Shown piece after piece: positions 6,329 through 20,253 of a DNA stretch of 64,000 nucleotides. The stretch is from positions 1-64,000 of the forward strand of contig JADHTB010000007.1 of assembly GCA_016776605.1 (NCBI GenBank), given 5' to 3'. How positions within the stretch are numbered: the first letter of the stretch is position 1; the number at the start of each line of letters is the position of its first letter. A program made the translations under genes and the position numbers. Origin of the DNA: Alphaproteobacteria bacterium. GTDB lineage: Bacteria; Pseudomonadota; Alphaproteobacteria; GCA-2731375. Under the pieces are notes generated by a model. That model made no database searches and was not told where the DNA came from. It saw nothing but the letters and a program-made list of their open reading frames with translations.

Positions 6329-8002
6329 ATGACCGAGTCCTTCAACGTTGGCGATCTGGTCGCCGAATTTCTGCAGCAATGCGGCGTCACGACGGCCTAT
6401 GGCGTGGTCTCGGTCCATAACATTCCCATGTTGGACGGCATCGGGCGGCGTAATGCCATCCGCTTCGTGCCCAGCCGGGGCGAGGCGGGGGGCGGCCATA
6501 TGGCGGACGCCCATGCCCGCGTCTCGGGTGGTCTTGGGGTGTTGTTTTCCTCCACCGGGCCAGGTGCGGCCAATACGCCCGGCGCTTTGGTCGAAGCACG
6601 CTTTGCCGCCACCCCCCTGCTGCATCTTACCGGGCAAAGTGCGCGGCAGAATTTGGGCACGGGCCAGGGCGCGGTGCACGATGTACCCGATCAATTGGGC
6701 ATGCTGGCAGCCGTGTCCAAGAAAGCCTACCGCATCGAGTCGGCGCAGACCGCCTTCGCCACTCTGTGCGAGGCGGCGGCACAGGCGCTGACCCCGCCCA
6801 TGGGGCCGGTCAGCGTGGAAATACCCATCGATGTGCAACGCACCAACATTGCCCGGCCCGAGGCCCTGGATAATCTGGTGCTGCCCATTCCCAGCCCCCG
6901 CGCGCCAAGTGCGGGCGAGTTGGACCGGGCGGCGGATGCCCTGGCCAACGCCAAACGGCCGCTGCTGTGGTGCGGCGGCGGCGCCCGCGAGGCCGGCGCG
7001 GCCGTGGCCCGGTTGGTGGCGTTGGGCGTACCCCTGGTCACCTCCTGGCAGGGCCGGGGCGTCATGGCCGAGGATCAGCCGATGACCCTGGGCGGCCTGA
7101 ACGGCAACGGCAGTCCCCTGGTGGAGGCTTTTTACGAGACCGTCGATCTGATGATCGTCGCCGGGAGCCGCCTGCGCGGCCACGAAACCCGGGACATGAC
7201 CATGACCCTGCCGGCCCGGCGGATTCAGATCGACGTGGACCCGTTGGCCAATGGCCGCACCTATGATTGCGAACAATTTATCTGTGCCGACGTGGCCCTG
7301 ACCCTGGATGCCCTGGCCGACCGTCTGGAAGGCAGAATGTCCGTGCAGGCCGGCTATGAGGTGGAAATCGGAAAATTGAAGGCCGACGCCACCACCGCTT
7401 ATCTGGGTATTCTGGAACAATACGCGGGCTTTCCCGCGGCCCTGCGCCAGGCCATGCCGCGTGATGCCCTGTTCGTGCGCGACGTTACCCTGAACAATTC
7501 CACCTGGGGCAACCGTATCTTTCCCCTGTATGGCCCCCGCGACAGCGTCTATCCGGTTGGCGCCGGCATCGGCCCCGGCTCCGCCCTGGGCATCGGGGCG
7601 GCGATTGCGGCCGCCGGCGATGGCCGCAAGACCGTGGCCATGTGCGGCGACGGCGGCTTTAACCTGGGGCTGGCGGAACTGCCCACGGCGGTGCAGGAAG
7701 GCGCCGATGTGACCTTTCTGGTGATGAACGACGGCGGCTATGGCGTGATCGGCCATATCCAGGACGCCATGTATGGGGAACGGCGCTATTTCGGCGACGT
7801 GCGCGGCGCCAATCTAAAAATCATGGCCGAGGCCACGGGCATGCCCTATTGGAAAGTCGGCAATGTGGAGGAATTCGGCGCCGTTGTGGCGGAAGCCATC
7901 GCCCACGCCGGTCCGGCCCTGGTGGAAGTGGACATGGTCGCCATCGGCCCCTACCCCCGCTATTTCGCCCCACCGCCCTTTGCGGAAGCGTCAAAGGATT
8001 GA
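6329..8002 (+). CDS. Thiamine diphosphate-dependent enzyme (acetolactate synthase-like)
   Basis: A 557-residue ThDP enzyme with the three-domain order of acetolactate synthase, benzoylformate decarboxylase and their relatives. The N-terminal Pyr domain carries the catalytic Glu in VPSRGEAGGGHMADAHAR near residue 51. A central domain follows. The C-terminal PP domain has the cofactor motif CGDGGFNLGLAELPTA, followed by NDGGYGVI. No regulatory subunit or other ilv gene is adjacent, so housekeeping branched-chain synthesis is not indicated; a decarboxylase or carboligase on a 2-oxo acid is equally possible. It is convergent with a class IV aminotransferase. A purine-rich GGGG precedes the start. 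Confidence 0.85.
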   Translation: MTESFNVGDLVAEFLQQCGVTTAYGVVSVHNIPMLDGIGRRNAIRFVPSRGEAGGGHMADAHARVSGGLGVLFSSTGPGAANTPGALVEARFAATPLLHLTGQSARQNLGTGQGAVHDVPDQLGMLAAVSKKAYRIESAQTAFATLCEAAAQALTPPMGPVSVEIPIDVQRTNIARPEALDNLVLPIPSPRAPSAGELDRAADALANAKRPLLWCGGGAREAGAAVARLVALGVPLVTSWQGRGVMAEDQPMTLGGLNGNGSPLVEAFYETVDLMIVAGSRLRGHETRDMTMTLPARRIQIDVDPLANGRTYDCEQFICADVALTLDALADRLEGRMSVQAGYEVEIGKLKADATTAYLGILEQYAGFPAALRQAMPRDALFVRDVTLNNSTWGNRIFPLYGPRDSVYPVGAGIGPGSALGIGAAIAAAGDGRKTVAMCGDGGFNLGLAELPTAVQEGADVTFLVMNDGGYGVIGHIQDAMYGERRYFGDVRGANLKIMAEATGMPYWKVGNVEEFGAVVAEAIAHAGPALVEVDMVAIGPYPRYFAPPPFAEASKD

Positions 8003-8007
8003 GGGAG

Positions 8008-8853
8008 CTAAAAAACCGAGAAGCCCTGGGCGTATTCGAAATAGAGTTCTTTGGCGCGGCGGCTGATGGGGCCGGGTTGTAGCTCGCGGTCCTCGAACTG
8101 GGTGATGGGGCGGATCTTGGCGTGGTTGCCGGAGGAGAAGATTTCGTCGGCGGCCATCAAATCATCCACGGTCAGGGTGCCTTCGATCACTTCCACGCCG
8201 TCGCCGCGCAACAGCTGAATAGTGCGCTGGCGGGTCACGCCGTTCAAAAAGGTGCCGTTGATGGCGGGGGTCATGGCCACGCCGTCCTTGACGATCCACA
8301 GGTTGGACGAGAGGAATTCGGCCACGTTGCCGTTCGGGTCCAGGATCACCGCATTGTCGAAACCGCGCTTGGCCGCATCGGTCAGGGCCAGGGCGGTATT
8401 GGGATACAGGCAGGATGCCTTGGCCGTGGTCGGCGCCATGTCCCGGGCCGGGCGGCGGCGCGATGACATACAGACCTTGAACGGCCCCTCGGGCGGCAGG
8501 GGGTTGTCATAGATCGCCAGCACGAAATCGGTGCTATCGGGGTCCGGCGTCAAAAAGCCCTCGCGGGCATAGAACATGGGCCGGATATAAAGCTCCATTT
8601 CCCTGGGCAGTTGGCGCACCCCGGCGCGGCAAAGTTCGGCAATTTCGCCGGCTTCAATCTTTGGCGCCAACAGCATGTTTTGGGCCGAGGTGCACAGCCG
8701 GGCGCAATGCTCCTCCACATCCGGCACCAGGCCGCCAATGGAGCGCGCCCCATCGAACACCACCGAGGCCATCCAGAAGGCGTGGTTCATGGGGCCGATC
8801 AGCATGGGTTGCTGTTCGTGCCATTTTCCATCGTGAAAAAATACCGCGTTCAT
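8008..8853 (-). CDS. Class IV (branched-chain type) aminotransferase
   Basis: A PLP enzyme of fold type IV, 281 residues. Recognisable segments are MNHAFWMASVVFDGARS, the Lys-bearing TTAKASCLYPNTALALTDA (the PLP Schiff-base lysine is expected here), NVAEFLSSNLWIV, and the cofactor loop GVTRQRTIQLL. Family members are branched-chain aminotransferases (IlvE), D-amino acid transaminases and aminodeoxychorismate lyases; the pattern fits a branched-chain-like transaminase best. The start MNAVFFHDG is chosen because GGAG lies 8 bases upstream. An ATG five codons earlier is the alternative. It lies convergent to the ThDP enzyme gene, 5 bases away. Confidence 0.85.
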   Translation of the reverse strand: MNAVFFHDGKWHEQQPMLIGPMNHAFWMASVVFDGARSIGGLVPDVEEHCARLCTSAQNMLLAPKIEAGEIAELCRAGVRQLPREMELYIRPMFYAREGFLTPDPDSTDFVLAIYDNPLPPEGPFKVCMSSRRRPARDMAPTTAKASCLYPNTALALTDAAKRGFDNAVILDPNGNVAEFLSSNLWIVKDGVAMTPAINGTFLNGVTRQRTIQLLRGDGVEVIEGTLTVDDLMAADEIFSSGNHAKIRPITQFEDRELQPGPISRRAKELYFEYAQGFSVF

Positions 8854-8896
8854 GGCAGTCTCCGTCATACAAAAACCGGGTCGGTGTCATCAATCT

Positions 8897-8925
8897 CATG
8901 GCCCATAGCCCCTAACGGGGCCATG
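8897..8925 (-). terminator. Possible hairpin between two minus-strand genes
   Basis: CATGGCCC at 8897-8904 pairs with GGGCCATG at 8918-8925 around a 13-base loop. It lies after the stop of the molybdenum hydroxylase gene and before the aminotransferase start. There is no T-run after it on either strand, so a rho-independent terminator is not demonstrated. Confidence 0.3.
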
Positions 8926-8949
8926 GTCACGCTATTCATGAGATCCTGG

Positions 8950-11220
8950 TTACTTTTTCGCGGCATCCATCGCGGCCAGCATCTTCGGCGGAGAGATCGG
9001 CAACGAGGTCATGCGCACCCCGGTGGCAGCCTCGACCGCATTGGCGACAGCCGCCATAACCGGAACGATGCAGGCCTCGCCCACGCCCTTCACACCATAG
9101 GGGTGGTCAGGATTGGGGACCTGGACCACCACCGCGTCAATCATCGGCAGGTCAGAGGACAACGGCATGCGATAGTCCAGGAAGCCGGTGTTCTGCAACC
9201 GGCCATCCTTGCCATAGACATATTCCTCGTTCAGGGCCCAGCCGATGCCTTGGACGACGCCGCCATGGATCTGCCCCTCCACATAGGATGGATGAATGGC
9301 CCGGCCTGCATCCTGGGCCGCCGTGAAGCGCAGGATTGTCACTGCGCCGGTTTCCGGATCGACCTCGACATCGCAGATCTGTGTCGCCACGCCCGGCCCC
9401 ACACCCGTGGGATTGACCCCGGCGCTGCCGACGATGGGCCCGCCCGTCGCCGATTTTTGCGCGGCAATTTGCGCCAGCGACAAAGGTTCGAAATCACCAA
9501 CATTGGTCGAGGCCGGCTTGGCATAGCCGTCCTCCCAGATCACGCCGTCGGGGTCGACGTCCCAAATTTTAGCAGCGCGGACGCATAGTTCGGCGATCAC
9601 TTCCTTGGCTGCGTTGATGACCGCCAGACCGGAGGCCAGGGTCACCCGGCTGCCGCCGGTGACGTGGGTGTAGCCCACATTGGCGGTATCCGCCACGGTC
9701 GCGCGGACCTGATCATAGTGGATGCCCAGGGTCTCCGCCGCCATGATCGCCATGGAGGCGCGGGAGCCGCCCACATCGGGACTGCCCGTGGCGACCACCG
9801 CCGTGCCGTCATCGTTGATGGCCAGGGTTGCGGCCGAATCGCCGCCGCCATTGAACCAAAAGCCCGATGCCACGCCGCGGCCCTGGTTCGGCCCCAATGG
9901 CACCTTGTAGTTGGGATGCGCCATCAAGGCCTCGATGGTTTCGGCATAGCCAATGGAGTTAAAGGTCTGGCCAAATATCGTGGTGGAGCCATTGCGGGCC
10001 GCGTTCTTCAGACGGATTTCGAGGGGGTCCATGCCGATCTTGCGCGCCAATACGTCCAGGGCACTTTCCACCGCGAAGGCCGCGATGGGAGAGCCCGGCG
10101 CACGGTAGGCGGCCGCCTTGGGCCGGTTCACCGTTACGTCATTGGCCACGGCCCTGGCATTGGCCAGATCGTAGCGCGAGAAGGCGCACATGGCGGCGCC
10201 GATGACCGGCGCGCCGGGAAAGGCCCCGCCGCCAAAGTACAGGGTTACCTCGGCACCAGAAATCGTGCCGTCCTTTTTAGCGCCCAATTTTACCTTCATG
10301 ACGCTGTCGGAGGTGGGACCGGAGGCCGTGAAGACCTCTATCCGGGACATCACGATCTTCACCGGCAGGCCGGCTTTGCGCGATAGGGCCAGGGCCAGGG
10401 GTTCCAGATACAGCACGGTCTTGCCGCCGAACGCGCCGCCCAGTTCCGTGGGGATCACCTTCAAATCCGCATGGTTCATGCCCAACAGCTTGGCCGCCAC
10501 ACTGCGGACAACAAAATGCCCCTGGGTACAGGTCCACAGCTCCGCCTGACCGTCCTGCTTAAAGTTCGCGAGGCAGGCGTGCGGCTCGATATAGCCCTGA
10601 TGCACGGCCTCGGTGGATAATTCCAATTCCACGATTTCATCGGCCTCGGCGAAACCGGCCGCGAGATCACCAACATTGAATTCGGCATACTTGGCAATGT
10701 TCGATGGCTTGGTTGGCGCCGGCTCTATGCCCATGGTGATCTGATCTTCATGCAGCAACGGCGCATCGGGTTTTATCGCGTCGGCCACGCCCGTGACATG
10801 GGGCAGTATTTCGTAATCGACCTCGATCAATTTCATGGCTGCATCGGCGATCGCCGTGGAGGTCGCGGCGACGGCGGCCACCGCATGGCCTTCGTACATC
10901 GCCTTTTCCCGCGCCATGATGTTGCGGGTGATGTGGTGCAGGTTCTGCTGCACCCGGGCGGGGCCGGCATAGACCGACGGCTGATCAAGAATGTCAGCGG
11001 AAGTGATAACAGCCTTCACGCCCTGCAATGCCTCGGCCTTGGAGGTGTCGATGCCGCGAATCCGAGCATGGGCATGGGGACTGCGCAAGACCTTGCCCAC
11101 CAACATACCCGGCAAGTTAAAGTCAGCGCCGTACCGGGCCGCGCCGGTTACTTTCTCGACCCCATCGGGCCGAATTGGCCGTTTACCGATCCAATTGAAC
11201 TGCTGGCTGTTGTCGTTCAT
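8950..11220 (-). CDS. Xanthine dehydrogenase family molybdopterin-binding subunit
   Basis: A 756-residue large catalytic subunit of the molybdenum hydroxylase (xanthine oxidase/CO dehydrogenase/aldehyde oxidase) family. The N-terminal a/b hammerhead domain begins near RPIRPDGVEKVTGAARYGADF. The Mo-cofactor region has ELGGAFGGKT, APGSPIAAFAVES and, near the C-terminus, the GVGEACIVPV segment with the conserved catalytic Glu. There is no twin-arginine signal. The usual FAD-binding and 2Fe-2S subunits are not next to it, so it must be an orphan subunit or use partners encoded elsewhere. AAGGA lies 9 bases before the start. It is divergent from the acyl-CoA dehydrogenase gene. Confidence 0.9.
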   Translation of the reverse strand: MNDNSQQFNWIGKRPIRPDGVEKVTGAARYGADFNLPGMLVGKVLRSPHAHARIRGIDTSKAEALQGVKAVITSADILDQPSVYAGPARVQQNLHHITRNIMAREKAMYEGHAVAAVAATSTAIADAAMKLIEVDYEILPHVTGVADAIKPDAPLLHEDQITMGIEPAPTKPSNIAKYAEFNVGDLAAGFAEADEIVELELSTEAVHQGYIEPHACLANFKQDGQAELWTCTQGHFVVRSVAAKLLGMNHADLKVIPTELGGAFGGKTVLYLEPLALALSRKAGLPVKIVMSRIEVFTASGPTSDSVMKVKLGAKKDGTISGAEVTLYFGGGAFPGAPVIGAAMCAFSRYDLANARAVANDVTVNRPKAAAYRAPGSPIAAFAVESALDVLARKIGMDPLEIRLKNAARNGSTTIFGQTFNSIGYAETIEALMAHPNYKVPLGPNQGRGVASGFWFNGGGDSAATLAINDDGTAVVATGSPDVGGSRASMAIMAAETLGIHYDQVRATVADTANVGYTHVTGGSRVTLASGLAVINAAKEVIAELCVRAAKIWDVDPDGVIWEDGYAKPASTNVGDFEPLSLAQIAAQKSATGGPIVGSAGVNPTGVGPGVATQICDVEVDPETGAVTILRFTAAQDAGRAIHPSYVEGQIHGGVVQGIGWALNEEYVYGKDGRLQNTGFLDYRMPLSSDLPMIDAVVVQVPNPDHPYGVKGVGEACIVPVMAAVANAVEAATGVRMTSLPISPPKMLAAMDAAKK

Positions 11221-11463
11221 TTCTATCTATCCTTTGGCATAGCGCAGATGATCGTATTTGGGGGCATAATACCGCCCCCATGGCCCCCGGCACAAGCAAA
11301 CCCGCCTCTTTCCCATCTCTTCCCCCTATCTTTCCTGGCACCATCTAGTCGGACATACTGCATCAGGGTGGTTTTTGAATTGCCCCGTGGCGCATTCCCC
11401 CGCGGCCCCGTATCGTGGGCAAGGGGCCGCCGCTACAATTTATAAACGATTAGGAAACCGCCA

Positions 11464-12609
11464 ATGCCATACAGCACGTTCAATTTCAGCGAAGAACAGG
11501 TCTTGATGCGCGATAGTGTGCTGGGCCTGATGAACCGCGTCCTGCCACCGGAAAAAATCGCCGAACTGGACCGGGAACGGCGATTTCCCCACGATGCCTA
11601 TCAAGCCCTGGCTGAAAACGGCTGGCTGACCCTGCCTTATGACACGGCCCATGGCGGCATGGACGCCTCCCACAAGGATCTGGCTGTCTTTATCGAGGCG
11701 TTGGGCTATCACCATCCGGGCATCCGTGTCTCGTTCATGTCGACCGCCGTCTATGGCGGGCTGTATCTGCAAAATCTGGGCGATGCGTCGCTGAAGGCCG
11801 AACTGCTGGGGGGCATGCAGGACGGCTCTATCCGTACCGCAATTGCCTTCAGCGAACCGGACAGCGGATCGGATGCCGCCGGCATCCGCACCCGCGCGGT
11901 GCGCGATCGCGACGACTGGATTATCTCCGGGCAAAAGGTCTATGTGACCAACGCACACGAGGCGGACTATCTAATCGTCTCGACCAAGACGGACCCGGAT
12001 GCCGGGCGCCGGGGCATTAGCCTGTTCATGGTCGATACGGCGCAGCCGGGCTTCGAGACCCGGCCCATGGACCCGCTGGGCAGCCGGTCGACCCTGCTGA
12101 ACGAGGTGTTCTTCGATGACGTGCGCATTCCCGGCAACCGCCTGCTGGGCGAAGTCAATGGCGGCTGGCACGGGCTGATGCGCGGGCTTAATCTGGAACG
12201 GGTGCTGATCGCGGCGGCGGCGGCGGGCGGTTGCATCAAGATCATCGAGGTGGCCAGGAACTTCGTGCAGGACCGCCAGGCTTTCGGCAAAAAGCTAGGC
12301 GAGTTTCAGGCGGTGGCGCACAAATTCGCGGATATGCGCATGTTGATGGAGACGGCGCGGCTGGTTACCTATCATACCGCCGATATGCTGGACGCCAAGG
12401 CGGACGCCGTCACGGAAACCGCGATTGCCAAGGTCGTCGCGACCGAAAACAACTTCAAGGCGGCCGATTTGGGCATGCAGGTCATGGGCGCGGCGGGTTA
12501 TGTCCAGGGCGATATGCAACGCCTGTTCCGCGAAGCCCGCATGGGCATGATCGGTGGCGGCACCAGTGAAATTCTGCGTAACGTCATCGCCAACCGCATG
12601 GGTATATAG
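11464..12609 (+). CDS. Acyl-CoA dehydrogenase
   Basis: A 381-residue FAD enzyme of the acyl-CoA dehydrogenase family, oxidising an acyl-CoA thioester at the alpha-beta bond. The FAD/substrate signature is AFSEPDSGSDAAGIRTRAV near residue 122, and the C-terminal motif is IGGGTSEILRNVIANRMG. The helical C-terminal domain with DRQAFGKKLGEFQAVAHKFADM is intact. The length is typical. AGGA precedes the ATG. The gene is divergent from the molybdenum hydroxylase subunit across 243 bases. Chain-length or branched-chain specificity cannot be read from the sequence. Confidence 0.92.
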   Translation: MPYSTFNFSEEQVLMRDSVLGLMNRVLPPEKIAELDRERRFPHDAYQALAENGWLTLPYDTAHGGMDASHKDLAVFIEALGYHHPGIRVSFMSTAVYGGLYLQNLGDASLKAELLGGMQDGSIRTAIAFSEPDSGSDAAGIRTRAVRDRDDWIISGQKVYVTNAHEADYLIVSTKTDPDAGRRGISLFMVDTAQPGFETRPMDPLGSRSTLLNEVFFDDVRIPGNRLLGEVNGGWHGLMRGLNLERVLIAAAAAGGCIKIIEVARNFVQDRQAFGKKLGEFQAVAHKFADMRMLMETARLVTYHTADMLDAKADAVTETAIAKVVATENNFKAADLGMQVMGAAGYVQGDMQRLFREARMGMIGGGTSEILRNVIANRMGI

Positions 12610-12765
12610 GAGTGGGCTATTCCTACGCGGCGATTACCTACTGTCGCGCCGCCGCCGAACGGTTTAGAATAAGGTCTCTGACGTACTTATATCCACGGCA
12701 AAGACGGAAAGGCGGTTAGGACGCGCCCCAACACTCCCAAAAGCCTGCTTCGCTTCCTTCGATTG

Positions 12766-13479
12766 ATGGCCGATTCGATCCGCGATCTGGCGCCAATCGT
12801 CGTTGTGGTTGCCTTTTTTCAATTCGCCGTCCTGCAACAACCTGTTCCCAATCTCGGCGGTATTCTGCTTGGCCTGTTCTCGGTGGTGATCGGCCTTACC
12901 CTGTTCATCCAGGGTCTGGAAATGGGCCTTTTTCCCATCGGCGAGACCATGGCCGTCGCCTTCGCCCGCAAGGGCAGCCTGTTCTGGCTGCTGGCCTTTG
13001 CCTTTGCCCTTGGCTTCGGCACGACGGCCGCGGAACCGGCCCTGATCGCGGTGGCTGCGGAAGCGGCCAAGGTTGCCGCCGAGGGCGGCGTGGTGGGCGC
13101 CTCCGAGGCAGCGCAGGCCGACTATGCATTCTACCTGCGGGGCACCGTGGCGCTTTCGGTCGGCGCGGCATTGATGCTGGGCGTTTTTCGCATCCTCAAG
13201 GGCTGGCCGATCCAGTACCTGATCATTAGCGGCTATATCACGGTGGTCATCCTGACCTTCTTTGCGCCGGCCTCCATTATTGGTATTGCCTACGATAGTG
13301 GCGGCGTGACCACCTCGACGATCACGGTGCCGCTGGTCACCGCGCTGGGCGTCGGTCTGGCCACCGTCATCAAGGGCCGCAGCCCGATGGTCGATGGTTT
13401 CGGCCTGATCGCATTCGCCTCCCTGACGCCGATGATCTTCGTCATGCTGTTTGGCATGCTGTGGGCGAGTTTGAGTTGA
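12766..13479 (+). CDS. DUF1538 membrane protein, first of a pair
   Basis: About 237 residues, very hydrophobic, with 6-7 probable membrane segments. It carries the DUF1538 family blocks [31 protein letters not shown], and [20 protein letters not shown] followed by [18 protein letters not shown]. It heads a tight operon with a second DUF1538 gene, a PII-like gene and a CBS gene. The start is uncertain. ATG 12766 (or TTG 12763) is used, but a coding-like stretch ([14 protein letters not shown]) lies just upstream without ATG, and the GGAAAGGCGG site at about 12706 sits far upstream. Function is unknown; a transporter half is inferred. Confidence 0.85.
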
Positions 13480-13489
13480 GGGCGCGGCA

Positions 13490-14281
13490 ATGGACATCCT
13501 GATTGACCTGTTCTGGACCGCTGCGGCCACCATCCGCGATGTGATCCCTATCGCCGTGGTGCTGTTCGGCTTTCAATATCTGGTGATCCGCCGCCCCCTG
13601 CCTCACCTGCGCAACATTATCGTAGGCTTCATCTACGTTGTCGCGGGCCTGACCTTCTTCCTGGTCGGATTGGAGCAGGCGCTTTTCCCTCTCGGCGAGT
13701 TGATGGCAAAGCAATTGACCGACCCATCCTTTATCCATGGCATCGGCATTGTCGTCGAAGGCGTGCGCTGGCAGGACTATTACTGGGTCTATCTGTTCGC
13801 CGCCTCGATCGGGTTTGCCTCCACCATAGCCGAGCCATCGTTGATCGCCATTGCCATCAAGGCCAACCAGGCATCGGGCGGCGTCATTGGTATTTGGGGC
13901 CTGCGCATCGCCGTGGCCGTCGGCGTCGCCATCGGCGTGGCGTTGGGCGCCTACCGTATCATTACCGGAACGCCGCTGCACTATTATATAATCGTCGGCT
14001 ATGCCATCGTGATCATCCAAACCACCCGCGCCAACCGGGCGGTCATTCCACTGGCCTATGATTCCGGCGGCGTGACGACCTCGACCGTTACCGTGCCCCT
14101 GGTCACGGCCCTGGGCCTTGGGCTGGCCACGACGATACCGGGCCGCAGCCCGTTGATCGATGGTTTTGGCCTCATTGCCTTTGCCAGCCTGTTCCCAATT
14201 ATCACCGTCATGGGCTATGCACAATTTGGCGAATGGTTGCGCAAGCGCCGCCGTTTGAAAGGAGAAGCAGATGAGATTTAA
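13490..14281 (+). CDS. DUF1538 membrane protein, second of the pair
   Basis: A 263-residue integral membrane protein that repeats the blocks of its upstream neighbour: [57 protein letters not shown] and [18 protein letters not shown]. The pair therefore arose by duplication and probably forms a pseudo-symmetric heterodimer. Fused double-length versions of this family also exist. It starts 11 bases after the first gene with GAGGG upstream, and its end overlaps the PII-like gene by 11 bases, which indicates translational coupling. The conserved acidic AEP(S/A)L and SGGVTTST blocks are candidates for a transport path. No substrate is known to me. Confidence 0.88.
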   Translation: MDILIDLFWTAAATIRDVIPIAVVLFGFQYLVIRRPLPHLRNIIVGFIYVVAGLTFFLVGLEQALFPLGELMAKQLTDPSFIHGIGIVVEGVRWQDYYWVYLFAASIGFASTIAEPSLIAIAIKANQASGGVIGIWGLRIAVAVGVAIGVALGAYRIITGTPLHYYIIVGYAIVIIQTTRANRAVIPLAYDSGGVTTSTVTVPLVTALGLGLATTIPGRSPLIDGFGLIAFASLFPIITVMGYAQFGEWLRKRRRLKGEADEI

Positions 14282-14621
14282 GCTGATAATGGCATTGGTC
14301 GATGACGATCATACCGATGTCATACTCGAGACCGCACGGGCGGCCGGCGCCACCGGCGCCACTGTCATCACGTCGGCGCGGGGCGAGGGACTGGTGCCCG
14401 AGAAGACCTTTCTTGGACTTGACCTCTCGGGCCAGCGTGACCTCATCATGTTTCTGGTCGCCGAGCAGTTATGCCGCGATATCCTCGAAAAAATAGCGGT
14501 TGTCGGACGCTTCAACGAGGAGCACGGTACCGGCATTGCCTTTCAGATCGCAATAGAGGACGCCGTTGGCCTGAAAACCCAACTTTCAACCCTATCCCAT
14601 GAAATCGAGGATCAGATATGA
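14271..14621 (+). CDS. PII-like signalling protein
   Basis: A 116-residue protein with the PII ferredoxin-like fold: MRFKLIMALVDDDHTDVILETARAAG, then GATVITSARGEG, and a last strand GIAFQIAIEDAVGL. It differs from GlnB/GlnK. The T-loop is short and has no uridylylatable Tyr in an EYRGAEY-type context, and the TGKIGDGKIF B-loop is replaced by FNEEHGTGIAF. It should therefore be a nonclassical, ligand-sensing PII relative, not a nitrogen regulator modified by GlnD. AAAGGAG lies 6 bases before the start. It overlaps the DUF1538 gene upstream and shares ATGA with the CBS gene downstream. Regulation of the membrane pair is inferred. Confidence 0.88.
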   Translation: MRFKLIMALVDDDHTDVILETARAAGATGATVITSARGEGLVPEKTFLGLDLSGQRDLIMFLVAEQLCRDILEKIAVVGRFNEEHGTGIAFQIAIEDAVGLKTQLSTLSHEIEDQI

Positions 14622-15040
14622 GTTCGGTCCCCCACATCAAAGTCAGCCAGATCATGCGCACCGAAGTGCGCATGGTCGATCCCATGACCCCCGTACGCGA
14701 AGCCATGCAGTTCATGCGTCAGCATGAAGTGAGCTCCCTGGTGATTGCGCGGCGCGACGAGCACGACGAATTAGGTCTCGTCGTCGTCTCCGACATCGCC
14801 AACAAGGTCATCGCCAAGAACCTTTCGCCCGATCGGGTCGATGTCTACGAGATCATGTCGAAACCGGTGATCACCCTGGATAGTGACATGGACATCCGCT
14901 ATGCGGTGCGCCTGTTGGGCAATTTTGGATTATCCCGGGGCCTGGTCATCGACCACGACCGCAATCTGGTCGGCATCGCAACCATGCGCGACATGGTGCT
15001 GGCCTATGTGGAACAGGAAGAGAAGACGGTCGAGGCTTAG
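14618..15040 (+). CDS. Twin CBS-domain protein
   Basis: A 140-residue stand-alone Bateman module. The first CBS repeat runs from VSQIMRTEVRMVDPMTPVRE to LGLVVVSDIANKVI, and the second from VYEIMSKPVITLDSDMDIRY to LVGIATMRDMVLAYV. CBS pairs bind adenine nucleotides or S-adenosylmethionine and usually gate a partner protein. It is the last gene of the DUF1538-PII operon, overlaps the PII-like gene by 4 bases and has GAGGA upstream. Its TAG stop falls inside a palindromic repeat that also supplies the stop of the convergent GNAT gene. Adenylate sensing for the transporter pair is inferred. Confidence 0.9.
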   Translation: MSSVPHIKVSQIMRTEVRMVDPMTPVREAMQFMRQHEVSSLVIARRDEHDELGLVVVSDIANKVIAKNLSPDRVDVYEIMSKPVITLDSDMDIRYAVRLLGNFGLSRGLVIDHDRNLVGIATMRDMVLAYVEQEEKTVEA

Positions 15041-15066
15041 AGCGCATTCAAAAAAATGCGCTCTAA
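15037..15066. repeat. Palindrome (hairpin B type) at a convergent gene end
   Basis: A 12-bp perfect stem TTAGAGCGCATT/AATGCGCTCTAA with a 6-base loop. It lies exactly between two convergent genes and contains both TAG stop codons (15038-15040 for the CBS gene, 15063-15065 for the GNAT gene). The same GAGCGCATT-type hairpin occurs at 36228 and, within larger composites, at 32219, 34900, 47382 and 63393. A bidirectional terminator role is plausible. Confidence 0.7.
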
Positions 15067-15479
15067 GTTTTGAGCATGAAATTTTCCGGTTTCGCCAGGG
15101 CCTCGAAACCAAACTGCTGATACAGGCCATGGGCGTCCGCCGTAGCCAGCAAAAAGCGTGACATGCCCGTCAGATCGGGATGCTTTACGGCGCACTCAAC
15201 CAGCCATTTTCCCAGATTACGGCCGCGCAGATCATCGATCACGAAGACATCCGACAGCCAGGCGAAACGGGCGTAATCCGTGACCACCCTGGTAAACCCT
15301 ACCTGCTGCCCGTCGTCCTGGTAGAGGCCGAAATTCAAGGCATTTTCGATGGACTGGCGGATCTTGCCTTTGGCCGTCCCCTCGCCCCAATAGGTCTGGG
15401 CCAGGTAGTCGACTGTAAAGGCCATATCCAGCCGGTCCATATCCGTCGAGATCGTGAAGCCGCCTCGTTGCCATTCCAT
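15063..15479 (-). CDS. GNAT family N-acetyltransferase
   Basis: A 138-residue GNAT-fold protein. Motif A is the acetyl-CoA binding segment VFVIDDLRGRNLGKWLVECAV, followed by FLLATADAHGLYQQFGFEAL, typical of this family. A catalytic acetyl transfer to a small amine is the family expectation; the target is unknown. It is convergent with the DUF1538-PII-CBS operon and only 23 bases from the CBS stop. It lies downstream of an SDR gene on the same strand with 16 bases between them, so the two are probably co-transcribed. Confidence 0.85.
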   Translation of the reverse strand: MEWQRGGFTISTDMDRLDMAFTVDYLAQTYWGEGTAKGKIRQSIENALNFGLYQDDGQQVGFTRVVTDYARFAWLSDVFVIDDLRGRNLGKWLVECAVKHPDLTGMSRFLLATADAHGLYQQFGFEALAKPENFMLKT

Positions 15480-15495
15480 GCCGCGGCCCTCTACC

Positions 15496-16272
15496 TCAAA
15501 TCTCTTGCTTGGTCTTGGCGGCGGCCACGTCCGCCGACATATCCCGCGGGTCGGTCGCGGCGATGGCCAGTTCCGAGACCATGGCCCGGCGCGGCAGGCT
15601 GACCGCCATCATCACGGCGGCCGAGATATCCTCGGGCAGCATCATCCGGGCCCGGGTTGCCACATCAGGCGGCAGGGCACGGTTGTCCAGGATAGGCGTA
15701 TCCACTTCGCCGGGAAAAATCGTGATGCAGCGGACACCATAGGGCCGCACCTCCTGGGCCAGAACGTTCATATAGGCCCGTGCCGCCACCTTTGCCGCAC
15801 TATAGGCCGCACCAGCCATGATGGAGGCGTTGACCGCCGCCATGGACGAGATCATCACCACATCGCCCCGCCCCTGTTCGATCATGGCGGGCAGCAGGGC
15901 CTTGGTCAGCACCACGGGGCCCATAGTGTTGACATCCATGACATCACGCCATTCCTTGGCCCCCACAAAACGCGCGCTTCTGATCTTCGAGCTGAAACCG
16001 GCGTTGTTGACCAAGATATCAATGGTGCCATGTGCCGCCAGCAATTCCCGGGCGCATTGTTCGATGGCGTCCGGGTCGGTCAGGTCACAGGTCACGGCAC
16101 TGGCCGCCCCCCCGGCTTCGGTAATGAGCTGCACCGTTTCGTCCAACGGCCCGGCCCGGCGTCCACAGATAATGACCTTGGCGCCGGCTTCGGCGAAATC
16201 AATGGCGATGGCCCGGCCAATGCCGGTGCCCGCCCCCGTCACGAACGCGGTTTGACCTTGTAATGAACTCAT
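15496..16272 (-). CDS. SDR family oxidoreductase
   Basis: A 258-residue classical short-chain dehydrogenase. The NAD(P)-binding TGAGTGIGRAIAIDFAEAG is near residue 12, NNAG occurs as VNNAGFSS, and the active-site AAYSAAKVAARAY keeps Tyr and Lys; a Ser precedes it in MISSMAAVNAS. The RR of ICGRRAG after the second strand suggests NADP preference. The substrate is unknown. It precedes a GNAT gene on the same strand and is divergent from the P450 gene across 277 bases, a space that should hold promoters for both. Confidence 0.9.
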   Translation of the reverse strand: MSSLQGQTAFVTGAGTGIGRAIAIDFAEAGAKVIICGRRAGPLDETVQLITEAGGAASAVTCDLTDPDAIEQCARELLAAHGTIDILVNNAGFSSKIRSARFVGAKEWRDVMDVNTMGPVVLTKALLPAMIEQGRGDVVMISSMAAVNASIMAGAAYSAAKVAARAYMNVLAQEVRPYGVRCITIFPGEVDTPILDNRALPPDVATRARMMLPEDISAAVMMAVSLPRRAMVSELAIAATDPRDMSADVAAAKTKQEI

Positions 16273-16549
16273 CAGCTAACTCCCCTATGTATTTTTCCAG
16301 ATGCATTCCACACTGGCCTGCCAATTTACACCAACGCGCCGGATTCCAAAGGCCGTTCGCAACAGACTTGCGGATAGGTCGGACGGATCACATGGGCAGG
16401 CAAAATATGGCTCCAAATTCATGATGATAATACGCCGTCAAATTTCTGAATTTTATGGCGGCAAATGCTAATGTCGCCGTCGGCGTCAGCATAGAGCCAG
16501 CCATTGAAGCGGGCCGGCGCCACGATACAGCCAGGGAAGGCACAACAAC

Positions 16550-17896
16550 ATGGCGTTAAGCGAAACCATCAAGGCGGGGCCGGCGGCCGGCAAACTGGAC
16601 CATATCCCCGGCCATATGGGGCTGCCCATATTCGGCAATACCTTTGAATTCATCAAGGACCCCTTCGCCTTTCACCAATGGCAACGGGAACGATACGGAC
16701 CCATTTACAAAGTCAGCATATTTGGCGGCCAGACCGTGGTCCTGCGCGGCGCCGATGCCCTGGAATACGTCTTGATGGACCGGGATAAGAATTTCGGCTC
16801 CCGCGAAGGCTGGCGGTTGCTGCAACAATTATTCCCCAACGGCCTGATGCTGCGGGATTTCGACGATCACCGCAGCCACCGCCGGATCATGCAGGTGGCC
16901 TTCAAACCAAAACCCATGCAGGATTATATGCTGCGCCTGAACGAGGGCATCGCCTCCAACCTGACGGCATGGGCCCCATCGCAAAGGTTCGAATTCTATC
17001 CCGCCATCAAGAACCTGACGCTGGAGCTGGGCGCCTCGGTCTTTCTGGGCCTGGAAATGGGCGATGAAGCGGCGCAGTTGAACCAGGCATTCGTTGACGA
17101 GGTGGCTGCCTCCATCGCGGTGATACGCAAGCCATGGCCCGGCACCAAAATGCGCCGCGGGGTGAAGGCGCGGGCCTTTCTGCTGGAATATTTCCGCGAT
17201 ATGATCCCGGCCCGCCGGGACGGCGATGGCGACGATATGTTCAGCCAGTTCTGCCAGGCGAAATCAGAGGACGGCGCCTTTTTCAGCGACGATGAAATCG
17301 TCGATCATCTTAATTTCCTGTTGATGGCGGCCCATGACACCACCACCTCGGCCCTGACCACGATGATCTGGGCCCTGGCGCGATACCCCGAATGGCAGGA
17401 TGCCGTGCGGGGGGAAGTCATGGCCCTTGGCACGGAACAATTGGACTATGACGCCATGGATCGTCTGGAGCTGACCGAGCGGGTCTTTAAGGAGGCCTTG
17501 CGCTTTCGCCCGCCCGTGCCTTTCCTGCCGCGTTTTGCCCGCCGACCGTTTGAATTCGGCGGTTACGAGATCCCCGGCGAAACCAGTATTTCCGTCAGCC
17601 CCGGCCTGGTCGCCATGTCGGAGACAATCTGGACCGACCCGACCCGGTTTGATCCCGACCGTTTCTCGGACAACCGGGCGGAGGACCGCCGCCATCGCTT
17701 TGGCTGGTCGCCATTTGGCGGCGGAGCGCATAAATGCATCGGCATGCATTTCGCCATCATGCAGGTGCGCGCCTTCGTGCATCAATTCGTGCAGCACTAC
17801 CGGGTCGCCCTGCCCGAAGGCTACCAGCCCCGTTGGCAGACCATCCCGATCCCCAAGCCAAAAGACGGTCTGCCGGTGATCCTCAGCAAGCTGTAG
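16550..17896 (+). CDS. Cytochrome P450
   Basis: A 448-residue soluble P450. The I-helix oxygen-activation motif is AAHDTTTS near residue 260, ExxR is KEALR, and the haem loop is FGGGAHKCIGMHFA with ligand Cys396. The N-terminus (GLPIFGNTFEFIKDP, ERYGPIYKV) has no membrane anchor and resembles CYP51/CYP120-like families more than the classic CYP101 type. No ferredoxin or reductase gene is nearby, so electron partners must come from elsewhere. An exported Cache-domain protein starts 8 bases after the stop, implying co-expression. The substrate is unknown. Confidence 0.93.
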   Translation: MALSETIKAGPAAGKLDHIPGHMGLPIFGNTFEFIKDPFAFHQWQRERYGPIYKVSIFGGQTVVLRGADALEYVLMDRDKNFGSREGWRLLQQLFPNGLMLRDFDDHRSHRRIMQVAFKPKPMQDYMLRLNEGIASNLTAWAPSQRFEFYPAIKNLTLELGASVFLGLEMGDEAAQLNQAFVDEVAASIAVIRKPWPGTKMRRGVKARAFLLEYFRDMIPARRDGDGDDMFSQFCQAKSEDGAFFSDDEIVDHLNFLLMAAHDTTTSALTTMIWALARYPEWQDAVRGEVMALGTEQLDYDAMDRLELTERVFKEALRFRPPVPFLPRFARRPFEFGGYEIPGETSISVSPGLVAMSETIWTDPTRFDPDRFSDNRAEDRRHRFGWSPFGGGAHKCIGMHFAIMQVRAFVHQFVQHYRVALPEGYQPRWQTIPIPKPKDGLPVILSKL

Positions 17897-17904
17897 GCAG
17901 ATCC

Positions 17905-18396
17905 ATGAAAGCCACGCCGCGCTACCTTGTCGGTATATTCCTGACACTGTTTGTCGCGGCGCTGTCGGTTCAGGCCTTGGCCGATAGCCACTGCCGCCGT
18001 CCGGGCACGCCCTTGGAAGCCAAGGCGTTGGCGGAAAAGGCCGCCGCCCATCTGGCCGACGTCGGGCTGGGCAAGGCCTTCAACGATTTCATGTCGCCAA
18101 CAGCCGGCTTCATGCCCTTCGATCTTTATGTCTTTGTCTTCGATGGCGAGGGCCGGATGTGGGTCAATGGCCGCTTCCCAGGACTAATCGGCAGCAATGC
18201 CACCGAGGCCCGCGACCAAAATGGCCATAACTTCCTATTGGAGGCCATGCGCCGGGCCAAGCGGGACGGCTCGGCCTGGGTCGAATATCAATGGTACAAT
18301 CCCTGCACCGGCCGCCCGATGGCGAAATCCAGCCATGTCATTCGGGCGGGCGGGTTTTTCATCGGGGTCGGCGCTTATGGTAGGCTAAGCGTATAA
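17905..18396 (+). CDS. Exported single-Cache-domain protein
   Basis: A 163-residue protein with a clear signal peptide (MKATPRYLVGIFLTLFVAAL, then an ALA-type cleavage site before DSHCRR). One small-molecule-binding Cache domain follows: an N-terminal helix, then FDLYVFVFDGEGRMWVNG, GHNFLLEAMRRAKRDGSAWVEYQW and GFFIGVGAYG. Domains of this kind are usually the sensor half of chemoreceptors, but here it stands alone and is periplasmic. It follows the P450 with 8 bases between them and may bind the P450 substrate or product; that is inference. The start chosen is the only ATG that gives a signal peptide. Confidence 0.82.
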   Translation: MKATPRYLVGIFLTLFVAALSVQALADSHCRRPGTPLEAKALAEKAAAHLADVGLGKAFNDFMSPTAGFMPFDLYVFVFDGEGRMWVNGRFPGLIGSNATEARDQNGHNFLLEAMRRAKRDGSAWVEYQWYNPCTGRPMAKSSHVIRAGGFFIGVGAYGRLSV

Positions 18397-18424
18397 AAAA
18401 CCAATGCATGGAGGAGATACGGCC

Positions 18425-19183
18425 TTGAACGATATCAGGCATCTGGACAGATTGGGCTGGCGGCGCAAGATCGGTGTCGTCGTGCCGTCCACCAACACCA
18501 TCGTCGAACCGGAATTTCATGCCATGGCGCCCCTTGGCGTCACCAACCACACCGCGCGGTTCCTGATCCCGAACATGGACCTGAACAGCGATGCGGATTT
18601 CGAACAACTGGTCGTGGCCATCAAGGCGACCCTGGACGACGCCATCGACGGCCTGACACCCGCCGCGCCGGACCATGTAATCATCGGTATTTCCGCCGAG
18701 TCCTTTTGGGATGGCGCTGATGGCGCGCGGCAGTTGGAGGAACGGCTGACGGCCAAGGCGGGCTGCACCTTGACCCTGGGCTCCGCCGCCGCCCGCGCCG
18801 CCCTGGAAGCAGTCGGGGCCAAGCGCCTGGGCGTGATCACCCCCTATTGGCCTGTGGCCGATGACCGGGTGCGGCATTATTTCGGCGAATGCGGCTTTGA
18901 AATCGTGGCGCTGAAAGGCCTGAAAGCCAACAGCCCCGTCAACATTGCCGAACAAAGCGAACAAACCCTGCGCGAAGCCATGATCGAGGTGAATAGGCCG
19001 GATGTGGATACCATCATCCAGGTCGGCACCAACCTGGGCATGGCGCAACTGGCGGCAGAGGCAGAGCGCTGGCTGGGCAAGCCGGTGATCGCCATCAACA
19101 CGGCGCTGTATTGGCACGCCTTGCGGCAAATCGGCATTAACGACAAAATACCCGGTTGGGGCCGGCTGTTGTCCGATTTTTAG
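18425..19183 (+). CDS. Asp/Glu racemase-fold (maleate isomerase-like) protein lacking catalytic cysteines
   Basis: About 252 residues of the arylmalonate decarboxylase/maleate cis-trans isomerase group: VVVPSTNTIVEPEF near the N-terminus, GVITPYWPVADDRVR in the middle and GKPVIAINTALYWHALRQIG at the end. Active members use two cysteines, near residues 75-85 and 190-200. Here those positions read IIGISAESFWDG and QVGTNLGM, so both cysteines appear replaced. It may use other chemistry or only bind ligand. The start is TTG 18425 with GGAGGAG 8 bases upstream; ATG 18404 overlaps that site and is less likely. Confidence 0.8.
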   Translation: MNDIRHLDRLGWRRKIGVVVPSTNTIVEPEFHAMAPLGVTNHTARFLIPNMDLNSDADFEQLVVAIKATLDDAIDGLTPAAPDHVIIGISAESFWDGADGARQLEERLTAKAGCTLTLGSAAARAALEAVGAKRLGVITPYWPVADDRVRHYFGECGFEIVALKGLKANSPVNIAEQSEQTLREAMIEVNRPDVDTIIQVGTNLGMAQLAAEAERWLGKPVIAINTALYWHALRQIGINDKIPGWGRLLSDF

Positions 19184-19227
19184 GTGACGGCGTAATCAGC
19201 GTAAGCGGCGTAAACGGAGTACACGGT

Positions 19228-20253
19228 ATGGAATTTGGCGTATTCGACCATCTGGACCGGGGCCAGGACGACCTTACGGCGCAATTCGAGGATCGCCTGC
19301 GGCTGACCGAAGCCTATGACGAGGCCGACTTTTACGCCTATCATCTGGCCGAACATCACGCCACGCCGCTGGGCATGGCGCCTTCGCCCGGCATTTTCCT
19401 GTCCGCCGTGGCCCAGCGCACCAGGCGCCTGCGCTTCGGCCCCACGGTCTATTGTCTGCCCCTGTACCACCCGATCCGCCTGCTGGAAGAAATCTGCATG
19501 CTGGATCAAATGAGCGGCGGACGGCTGGAACTGGGCGTGGGCCGGGGCATATCACCCATCGAGGTGGGCTATTTCGGCCTGAATACAGAGACGGCGCCGG
19601 CCATGTACCGGGAGGGTTTGGAGCTTATCCTCGCGGGCTTTGCGGCGGGCCGGGACGGCGGTGATTTAAACTTCATCGGCGAACATTACCAGGTCAGCGG
19701 CATGCCCGTGACCCTGGCGCCCCGGCAGCAACCTCACCCGCCCCTCTGGTATGGCCTCTCGCTCCCCGACAGCACGGTCTGGGCGGCGCAGAACGCCGTT
19801 AACATCATCACCAACCGTGACGAGGCCGGCAGCCGGCAGATCACCGACCGCTACCGCCAGGAATGGCGGAACCTGGGCCATGACGATGGCAGCCTGCCCC
19901 GCATGGGCATGACCCGGCACGTCGTCATCGCCGAGACCGAGGCCGAGGCCCTGGGCATTGCGCGGCGGGCCTATAAGATCTGGCGCACCAGCTTCTACCT
20001 GCTATGGGACCGCCATGGCATGAAGCCCATCAACGTGAATTTTCCCGACAGCGTCGACGAGTTGGCCGCACTGGGCCAGGCCATCATCGGCACCCCCGAT
20101 CGTGTCGGCGCGGAAATCGAACGCCAGGTGGAGGCCAGCGGCATCAACTATTTCCTCTGCCGCTTTGCCTTTGGCGACATCACATACGACGAGGCCAAAC
20201 AGTCGGTCGATTTATTCGCCCGCCATATCGTACCGAAGCAGGCTGGCGGATAG
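19228..20253 (+). CDS. LLM class flavin-dependent oxidoreductase
   Basis: A 341-residue luciferase-like monooxygenase of TIM-barrel type: MEFGVFDHLDRG at the start, YHLAEHHATPLGMAPSPGIF, then LRFGPTVYCLPLYHPIRLLEEICMLDQMSGGRLELGVGRG, the F420/FMN-binding region of the family. It should act with reduced FMN from a separate reductase. The start has GGAG 8 bases before ATG. It lies on the same strand after the racemase-fold gene, followed by a Dabb protein. A nitroreductase-type flavoprotein is close by and could take part in flavin chemistry (inference). Its TAG stop lies in a palindromic repeat. Confidence 0.9.
   Translation: MEFGVFDHLDRGQDDLTAQFEDRLRLTEAYDEADFYAYHLAEHHATPLGMAPSPGIFLSAVAQRTRRLRFGPTVYCLPLYHPIRLLEEICMLDQMSGGRLELGVGRGISPIEVGYFGLNTETAPAMYREGLELILAGFAAGRDGGDLNFIGEHYQVSGMPVTLAPRQQPHPPLWYGLSLPDSTVWAAQNAVNIITNRDEAGSRQITDRYRQEWRNLGHDDGSLPRMGMTRHVVIAETEAEALGIARRAYKIWRTSFYLLWDRHGMKPINVNFPDSVDELAALGQAIIGTPDRVGAEIERQVEASGINYFLCRFAFGDITYDEAKQSVDLFARHIVPKQAGG

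Follow-up and report, generated by a model that had tools for sequence, protein, structure and literature searches.

A conserved operon joins a DUF1538 membrane pair to a gene for a PII-like protein

Four co-directional, tightly packed open reading frames (ORFs) lie between positions 12763 and 15040 of the window, by which we mean the whole 64,000-nucleotide stretch of alphaproteobacterial DNA analysed here. All four were confirmed, and the features of the locus are as follows.

12763..13479, + strand: UmpA-like DUF1538 protein, predicted 7 helices, N-in/C-out (Pfam, NCBIfam, charge bias)
13490..14281, + strand: UmpB-like DUF1538 protein, predicted 7 helices, N-out/C-in (Pfam, NCBIfam, charge bias)
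14271..14621, + strand: PII-like protein of a DUF1538-associated subtype (Pfam P-II, AF2 and Foldseek fold, linkage)
14618..15040, + strand: stand-alone twin-CBS (Bateman) protein, an optional member (Pfam CBS, alignment of 15)
15030..15073, no strand assigned: strong hairpin across the CBS stop codon (-28 kcal/mol, z -6.5)

The two membrane-protein genes are separated by 10 nt, umpB overlaps the PII gene by 11 nt, and the PII gene overlaps the CBS gene by 4 nt (ATGA), in agreement with the start/stop overlaps that the initial annotation of this stretch had seen among the last three genes. The UmpA start at 12763 is doubtful, as relatives share an in-frame N-terminus ~15-20 residues further upstream, and the true start probably lies in that direction. 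The hairpin may mark the end of the operon; it is absent from the + strand list of a terminator scan, whose 4 sites versus 2.7 in shuffles amount to no excess over chance. Rfam gave no riboswitch match upstream (window positions 8000-20000, E up to 1), nor any at gathering thresholds in 11 loci. Read by eye, the flanking genes (8950-12609 and 15063-17896) resemble those for a xanthine-dehydrogenase-type oxidoreductase, an acyl-CoA dehydrogenase, a GNAT-like protein, an SDR and a P450, with no evident tie to ion transport.

Both membrane proteins match DUF1538 (PF07556) over their full length, the first with 224.8 bits (9.9e-67) and the second with 215.7 bits (5.9e-64), against a Pfam cut-off of 22.6. 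The two blocks that they were initially said to have in common are indeed present, as [11 protein letters not shown] and [14 protein letters not shown]. Among the NCBIfam models, the first protein scores highest with UmpA (369.2 bits; UmpB gives 180) and the second with UmpB (342.4 bits; UmpA gives 208), and the matches extend across nearly the full length. These scores fall below the curated cut-offs of the two equivalog models (NF041627 and NF041628; 490 for UmpA, 500 for UmpB), and none of 9 proteins from other separate pairs attains them; alone among the further proteins scored, a natural UmpA-UmpB fusion (L064, two stretches summed) passes one cut-off, with 507 of 490. On this profile evidence, the window pair is a DUF1538 pair of the UmpA/UmpB kind.

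The initial annotation knew of no established substrate, and here it has to be corrected, since a homologous DUF1538 pair has been assayed. As described in the available text of the 2017 report, UmpAB of Halomonas zhaodongensis is a Na+(Li+, K+)/H+ antiporter that was cloned by its ability to rescue an E. coli strain lacking antiporters; umpA and umpB together, but neither gene singly, permit growth at 0.2 M NaCl, the two proteins co-precipitate, and vesicles exchange Na+, Li+ and K+ for H+ with an optimum at pH 9 (PMC5484666). The plasmid behind the E. coli activity carried umpA and umpB alone (available text of PMC5484666), so that PII and CBS proteins would be regulators and not essential subunits; a word search of the same text returned no PII, P-II or CBS. 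The Halomonas and window pairs are alike in being adjacent and homologous, in carrying the same conserved blocks, and in having a longer UmpB with a hydrophilic C-terminus (PMC5484666, available text). They differ in that the window pair scores below the equivalog cut-offs, and because of those scores the Na+(Li+, K+)/H+ substrate of the window clade can be carried over from the homologue only provisionally. For growth pH, the accessible part of a 2026 machine-learning paper names DUF1538 as one of the top 20 Pfam features (PMC13255231).

In a confident AF2 model of the natural fusion L064 (pLDDT 88.7, pTM 0.88), helices are broken in both halves at AEP and YDSGGVTT. When the loops are taken from this model and K+R is compared between alternate loops, the bias is positive in 86/87 UmpA-type halves and negative in 87/88 UmpB-type halves, with one tie in each set. 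With loops 2-3, loops 3-4 and the C-terminus left out, all 87 UmpA-type halves are positive and 86 of the 88 UmpB-type halves negative, the other two being ties. The window pair itself gives 6 v 1 for the UmpA-like and 4 v 11 for the UmpB-like protein. Seven helices per half had also been predicted independently in 2017 (PMC5484666, available text), and this count together with the opposite charge bias points to oppositely oriented halves, that is, to a split inverted repeat; since direct 7+7 UmpA-UmpB fusions also occur naturally, UmpAB is probably an inverted 7+7-helix transporter.

Among the columns that are at least 99% conserved in each of the two halves are the glutamate and proline of AEP, the aspartate of YDSGG and the two threonines (TT) after it. 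The acidic residues correspond in the window to UmpA E90 and D177 (counted from the ATG at 12766) and UmpB E115 and D191, and the E, D and TT positions are kept across all three transporter types described below. A known fold for UmpAB was considered and rejected: Foldseek of the model against the PDB gave a best E of 0.026, with none at 0.001 or better and TM-scores of at most 0.22 (query) and 0.23 (target) among the 50 matches listed, and the best E in a profile search of PDB sequences was 0.15. We read this to mean that UmpAB has no close solved relative, which does not in itself prove a new fold.

The third protein matches Pfam P-II (PF00543; 33.8 bits, 4.4e-8; cut-off 25), and its AF2 model has the PII fold, with GlnK1 matched by Foldseek at E 1.5e-6; confidence is low in the T-loop, around residues 37-55. 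The same genome encodes three ordinary GlnB/GlnK proteins (107-115 bits). Aligned with two of these, the window protein has a T-loop that is ~5 residues shorter and without the tyrosine, GTGI in place of GDGK in the B-loop, and no RIRTG; it is not a canonical GlnB/GlnK, and the initial description of a PII protein devoid of the GlnB-type T-loop tyrosine and B-loop stands. Neither is it an SbtB, for its neighbour is DUF1538 and not SbtA, the profile similarity of its subtype to SbtB is weak and partial (6n4a, E 0.0062), and, unlike SbtB, it has no CGPxGC loop. SbtB still binds adenosine, through different side chains, and its ligands include AMP, cAMP and c-di-AMP (PMC10117731, available text), so that the loss of the GlnB residues is compatible with nucleotide binding. 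No diadenylate cyclase domain was found in the window's genome (93% complete), on which ground c-di-AMP is rejected as the ligand for this organism only, within what the assembly covers; the class III cyclase domain (PF00211) has 28 matches there and, given these cyclase counts, cAMP, cGMP or AMP would be the favoured ligand.

The fourth gene encodes the stand-alone Bateman module that had been proposed, with two stretches matching Pfam CBS (70.6 bits, 1.3e-19; cut-off 24) as expected for tandem CBS. The second domain ends in GIATMRD, which we take to be the GxxTxxD ribose motif of CBS domains.

Within the phylum (Pseudomonadota), DUF1538 was found in 126 of 398 genomes, and a profile of the window-type PII built from 37 rows matched 156 of the 398 at E up to 1e-5 and 125 at 1e-12 or better. 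At the latter threshold 120 genomes have both, 6 DUF1538 only, 5 PII only and 267 neither (Fisher 3.7e-87, ignoring relatedness); at 1e-30 the corresponding counts are 99, 27, 5 and 267. A set of 40 DUF1538 regions was assembled so as to sample many families, a choice made once the first short loci had been inspected; in 36 of them a PII gene lies directly after DUF1538, and the remaining four are L082, L083, L088 and L094, the last of which runs off its contig. DUF1538 occurs in 34 of 385 genomes of the window's class, all inspected, and PII adjoins it in 32. Only G658 and G681 depart from this: their DUF1538 is fragmentary, and G681 shows a 21-bit PII remnant. Of the regions inspected in this class, a set of 28 yielded a PII signal in 26, the G681 remnant counted; one region (L294) is fragmentary and another (L298) stops at a contig edge. 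Fragmentary DUF1538 or PII copies (L294, L296 and L297, from G658, G681 and G404) may reflect either decay or assembly error. The distribution of DUF1538 is patchy, with carriers making up 14 of 61 near relatives.

A scan of genome contigs, recruited with a fused query, gave 387 loci, the best 80 of which all have fused UmpAB, PII and CBS; 79 could be placed in gammaproteobacterial orders, and the remaining one carries the title Gammaproteobacteria bacterium. Among these 80, the junction was measurable in 44 loci, and in 43 of them the fused UmpAB stop overlaps the PII start by 4 nt. Two plasmids, a mobilizable one from Methylocystis and a conjugative one from Chelativorans (L223, L225), carry two DUF1538 genes followed by PII, without CBS. 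The single record from outside the phylum, Vescimonas fastidiosa (Bacillota), was reached through a plasmid collection and has DUF1538 followed by a 224-aa protein (L224:6113-6784) with a P-II match in its second half only.

The conserved operon is real, with the PII-like gene as a near-obligate companion to DUF1538. The initial annotation had suggested such a comparison of neighbourhoods, with random neighbours as the outcome that would count against it; for PII the neighbours are far from random, and the general picture of two membrane halves forming a transporter, with genes for sensors linked to them, is supported. Near-constant linkage holds for PII and does not extend to CBS: the CBS gene is an optional member of the operon, present in 21 of the 40 family-spread regions and in 15 of the 28 class regions, one of these a fragment.

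The DUF1538 transporters fall into three types: separate pairs, fusions of ~500 aa (f500) and divergent fusions of ~600 aa (f600). One set of ~600-aa regions was recruited via weak PII matches, so that their adjacency is not an independent count, and a second set via DUF1538. CBS follows all 84 PII genes beside ~500-aa fusions and 21 of 43 beside separate pairs, and accompanies none of the 18 PII genes of the ~600-aa type. The T-loop pattern [TSAV]F[FLMIY][GN][LIM] occurs in 33/42 pair-linked, 81/84 f500-linked and 0/18 f600-linked PII sequences, and in 16/29 unlinked ones, a set that includes copies upstream of UmpA in double operons; the pattern marks subtypes and is not strictly bound to adjacency. 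A maximum-likelihood tree built from 120 PII rows has few columns behind it and leaves 61 of its 117 inner branches open; on this tree, 12 changes of neighbour type are needed vs 62.7 in shuffles, and loci with two transporter types keep two PII types (L066, L069, L206). By these sequence comparisons, PII subtype follows transporter subtype. Shared ancestry of the whole operon accounts for much of this tracking, which thus demonstrates joint inheritance and not contact.

The double operon at L066 is arranged as fused UmpAB, PII, CBS, second PII, UmpA and UmpB, and similar orders are seen in a few of the best 80 loci. In the ~600-aa type a second short ORF often comes after PII (L202, L205, L206, L210-L213, L217, L290, L293). 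A second PII is not established there: of 9 separate ORFs, one has a weak P-II match (0.0048) and eight have none.

Sixteen loci (L183-L198) were chosen for having no listed DUF1538 nearby, and the fetched stretches indeed contain the PII subtype and no DUF1538. Ten ORFs flanking such unlinked copies comprise 3 SH3_3, 1 Dus, 1 MutS and 5 with no match, several of which look like antisense frames, and on this showing we rejected the idea that the unlinked copies belong to another transport system. At L183-L188, L190-L195 and L198 the unlinked copies sit beside an SH3_3 gene where tested, presumably a YgiM-like one. Five genomes with a strong PII match have no DUF1538 match. In one family the transporter pair lies apart from the PII-CBS pair (L082 vs L199; also L200), and in one genus some transporter and PII copies are apart (L083 vs L198, L088 vs L197).

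At one locus (L280:2999-4159, + strand) UmpB and PII share a single open frame of 387 aa, the only in-frame UmpB-PII ORF in the sets scanned. A strong Shine-Dalgarno sequence precedes the PII ATG. We take the shared frame as a hint, having rejected it as proof of contact. In a residue-coupling analysis of UmpB against PII (159 pairs, Neff 73.5) the top pairs were scattered, with T-loop columns in 11 of the top 100 vs 19.8 expected; the analysis neither supports nor locates an interface.

Several transporters are known to answer to PII proteins. The examples listed in a 2023 review are AmtB-GlnK, Amt1-PII, SbtA-SbtB and two ABC systems; the review notes that such control appears confined to transporters able to act as trimers (PMC10710835, available text). 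The window has, as PII-regulated transporters do, a dedicated PII gene linked to a transporter. In AmtB-GlnK the linked PII blocks its own transporter with its T-loop (PMC10710835, available text); AmtB, however, is an ammonium channel and GlnK a canonical PII with the T-loop tyrosine and B-loop that the window protein lacks. The nearest analogue is SbtA-SbtB, in which a single operon likewise encodes the transporter and a PII-like partner of its own. According to the available text of PMC8352866, SbtA resembles UmpAB in being built of inverted repeats, although it is a 5+5-helix single chain, and the SbtB T-loop enters the SbtA cleft in an AMP-bound trimer. The two-component Na+/H+ antiporter PsmrAB is like UmpAB in that two homologous membrane proteins are needed together; it has 3 helices per subunit and, as stated in the available text of PMC5484666, no identity with UmpAB.

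We consider it reasonably probable that the window operon encodes a PII-gated cation/proton antiporter that works like SbtA-SbtB. UmpA and UmpB would form an inverted-topology heterodimer of seven helices each, exchanging Na+ (Li+, K+) for H+ across the inner membrane; both the antiport and the heterodimer have been demonstrated by others for the Halomonas homologue. The conserved E of AEP and D of YDSGG, at the predicted helix breaks of each half, are the likely ion/proton sites. The PII-like protein would be a dedicated cytosolic regulator, a PII-type trimer binding an adenine nucleotide, whose short TFxGL T-loop may dock on the cytosolic face and so open or close transport, and the twin-CBS protein would be a second, optional nucleotide input. 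Of all this, the analysis itself establishes the family, the operon, the near-constant linkage, the tracking of subtypes and the opposite charge bias; the substrate of this clade, the ligand, the docking, the gating and the trimeric assembly are inferred.

This reading is favoured by the UmpA/UmpB matches and the measured antiport of UmpAB, by the genome co-occurrence and the adjacency in 36/40 and 32/34, by the Bacillota and plasmid records, the overlaps in 43/44 loci and the tree, and by the charge bias, the PII fold and the PII-transporter precedents. Against it stand the sub-cut-off scores, the activity of UmpAB without PII or CBS, the unlinked PII copies and the motif that 16/29 of them retain, the five genomes with PII and no DUF1538 match, the absence of that motif from all 18 f600-linked sequences, and the lack of a T-loop coupling signal; co-inheritance of PII and DUF1538, moreover, is not equal to contact. 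If UmpAB is PII-gated, the apparent restriction of PII control to trimer-capable transporters predicts a trimer of heterodimers. The fuller proposal, in which UmpAB is a new structural class of antiporter (a split inverted 7+7 repeat without a PDB relative), forms a trimer of heterodimers under a PII trimer, and has each cytosolic cavity plugged by a TFxGL T-loop with cAMP or AMP, not c-di-AMP, as the ligand here, is tentative and, taken as a whole, rather doubtful.

It is unlikely that the DUF1538 pair of the window clade instead moves another cargo (bicarbonate, Mg2+ or an organic ion, for example) while PII and CBS report a related metabolic state. The window scores lie below the curated cut-offs, the literature searched yielded a single characterised pair for the family, and the closest PII analogue moves bicarbonate; the best matches are nevertheless UmpA and UmpB over nearly their full length, the E, D and TT positions are conserved in all three types, and the authors of the Halomonas study infer a common function across a broad cluster with UmpA identities of 30-93% (PMC5484666, available text). 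Somewhat less likely still is that PII and CBS sit in the operon for co-expression only and act on other targets, or on stability or expression, without contacting the transporter. The unlinked copies beside SH3_3, Dus or MutS genes, the separation in one family and one genus, and the activity of UmpAB alone in E. coli (PMC5484666, available text) would fit such an arrangement, whereas the near-constant adjacency in three transporter types, the co-retention of the parts across genomes, the matched subtypes and the one in-frame UmpB-PII ORF would not. That the UmpA and UmpB halves lie parallel in the membrane is improbable: the helix counts come from one predicted model and the 2017 prediction, but these agree on seven per half independently, the opposite sign of the charge bias survives the omission of three loop sets, and direct 7+7 fusions exist.

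In the open-access literature, the scope of our search, DUF1538 is mentioned in 5 papers, and among the titles and abstract starts of the papers listed none joins DUF1538 with PII. The transporter family was already known; its near-obligate PII partner and split inverted architecture appear to be undescribed in the literature searched. A PII protein acting on a Na+/H+ antiporter would, if the PII-gated antiporter reading is true, tie pH and salt homeostasis to adenine-nucleotide state. Dedicated PII-transporter pairs would then gain another kind, devoted to sodium/proton balance, and the PII subtype annotated 'P-II family nitrogen regulator' would acquire a function. The operon suggests that control of salt and pH is tied to the energy or messenger state of the cell.
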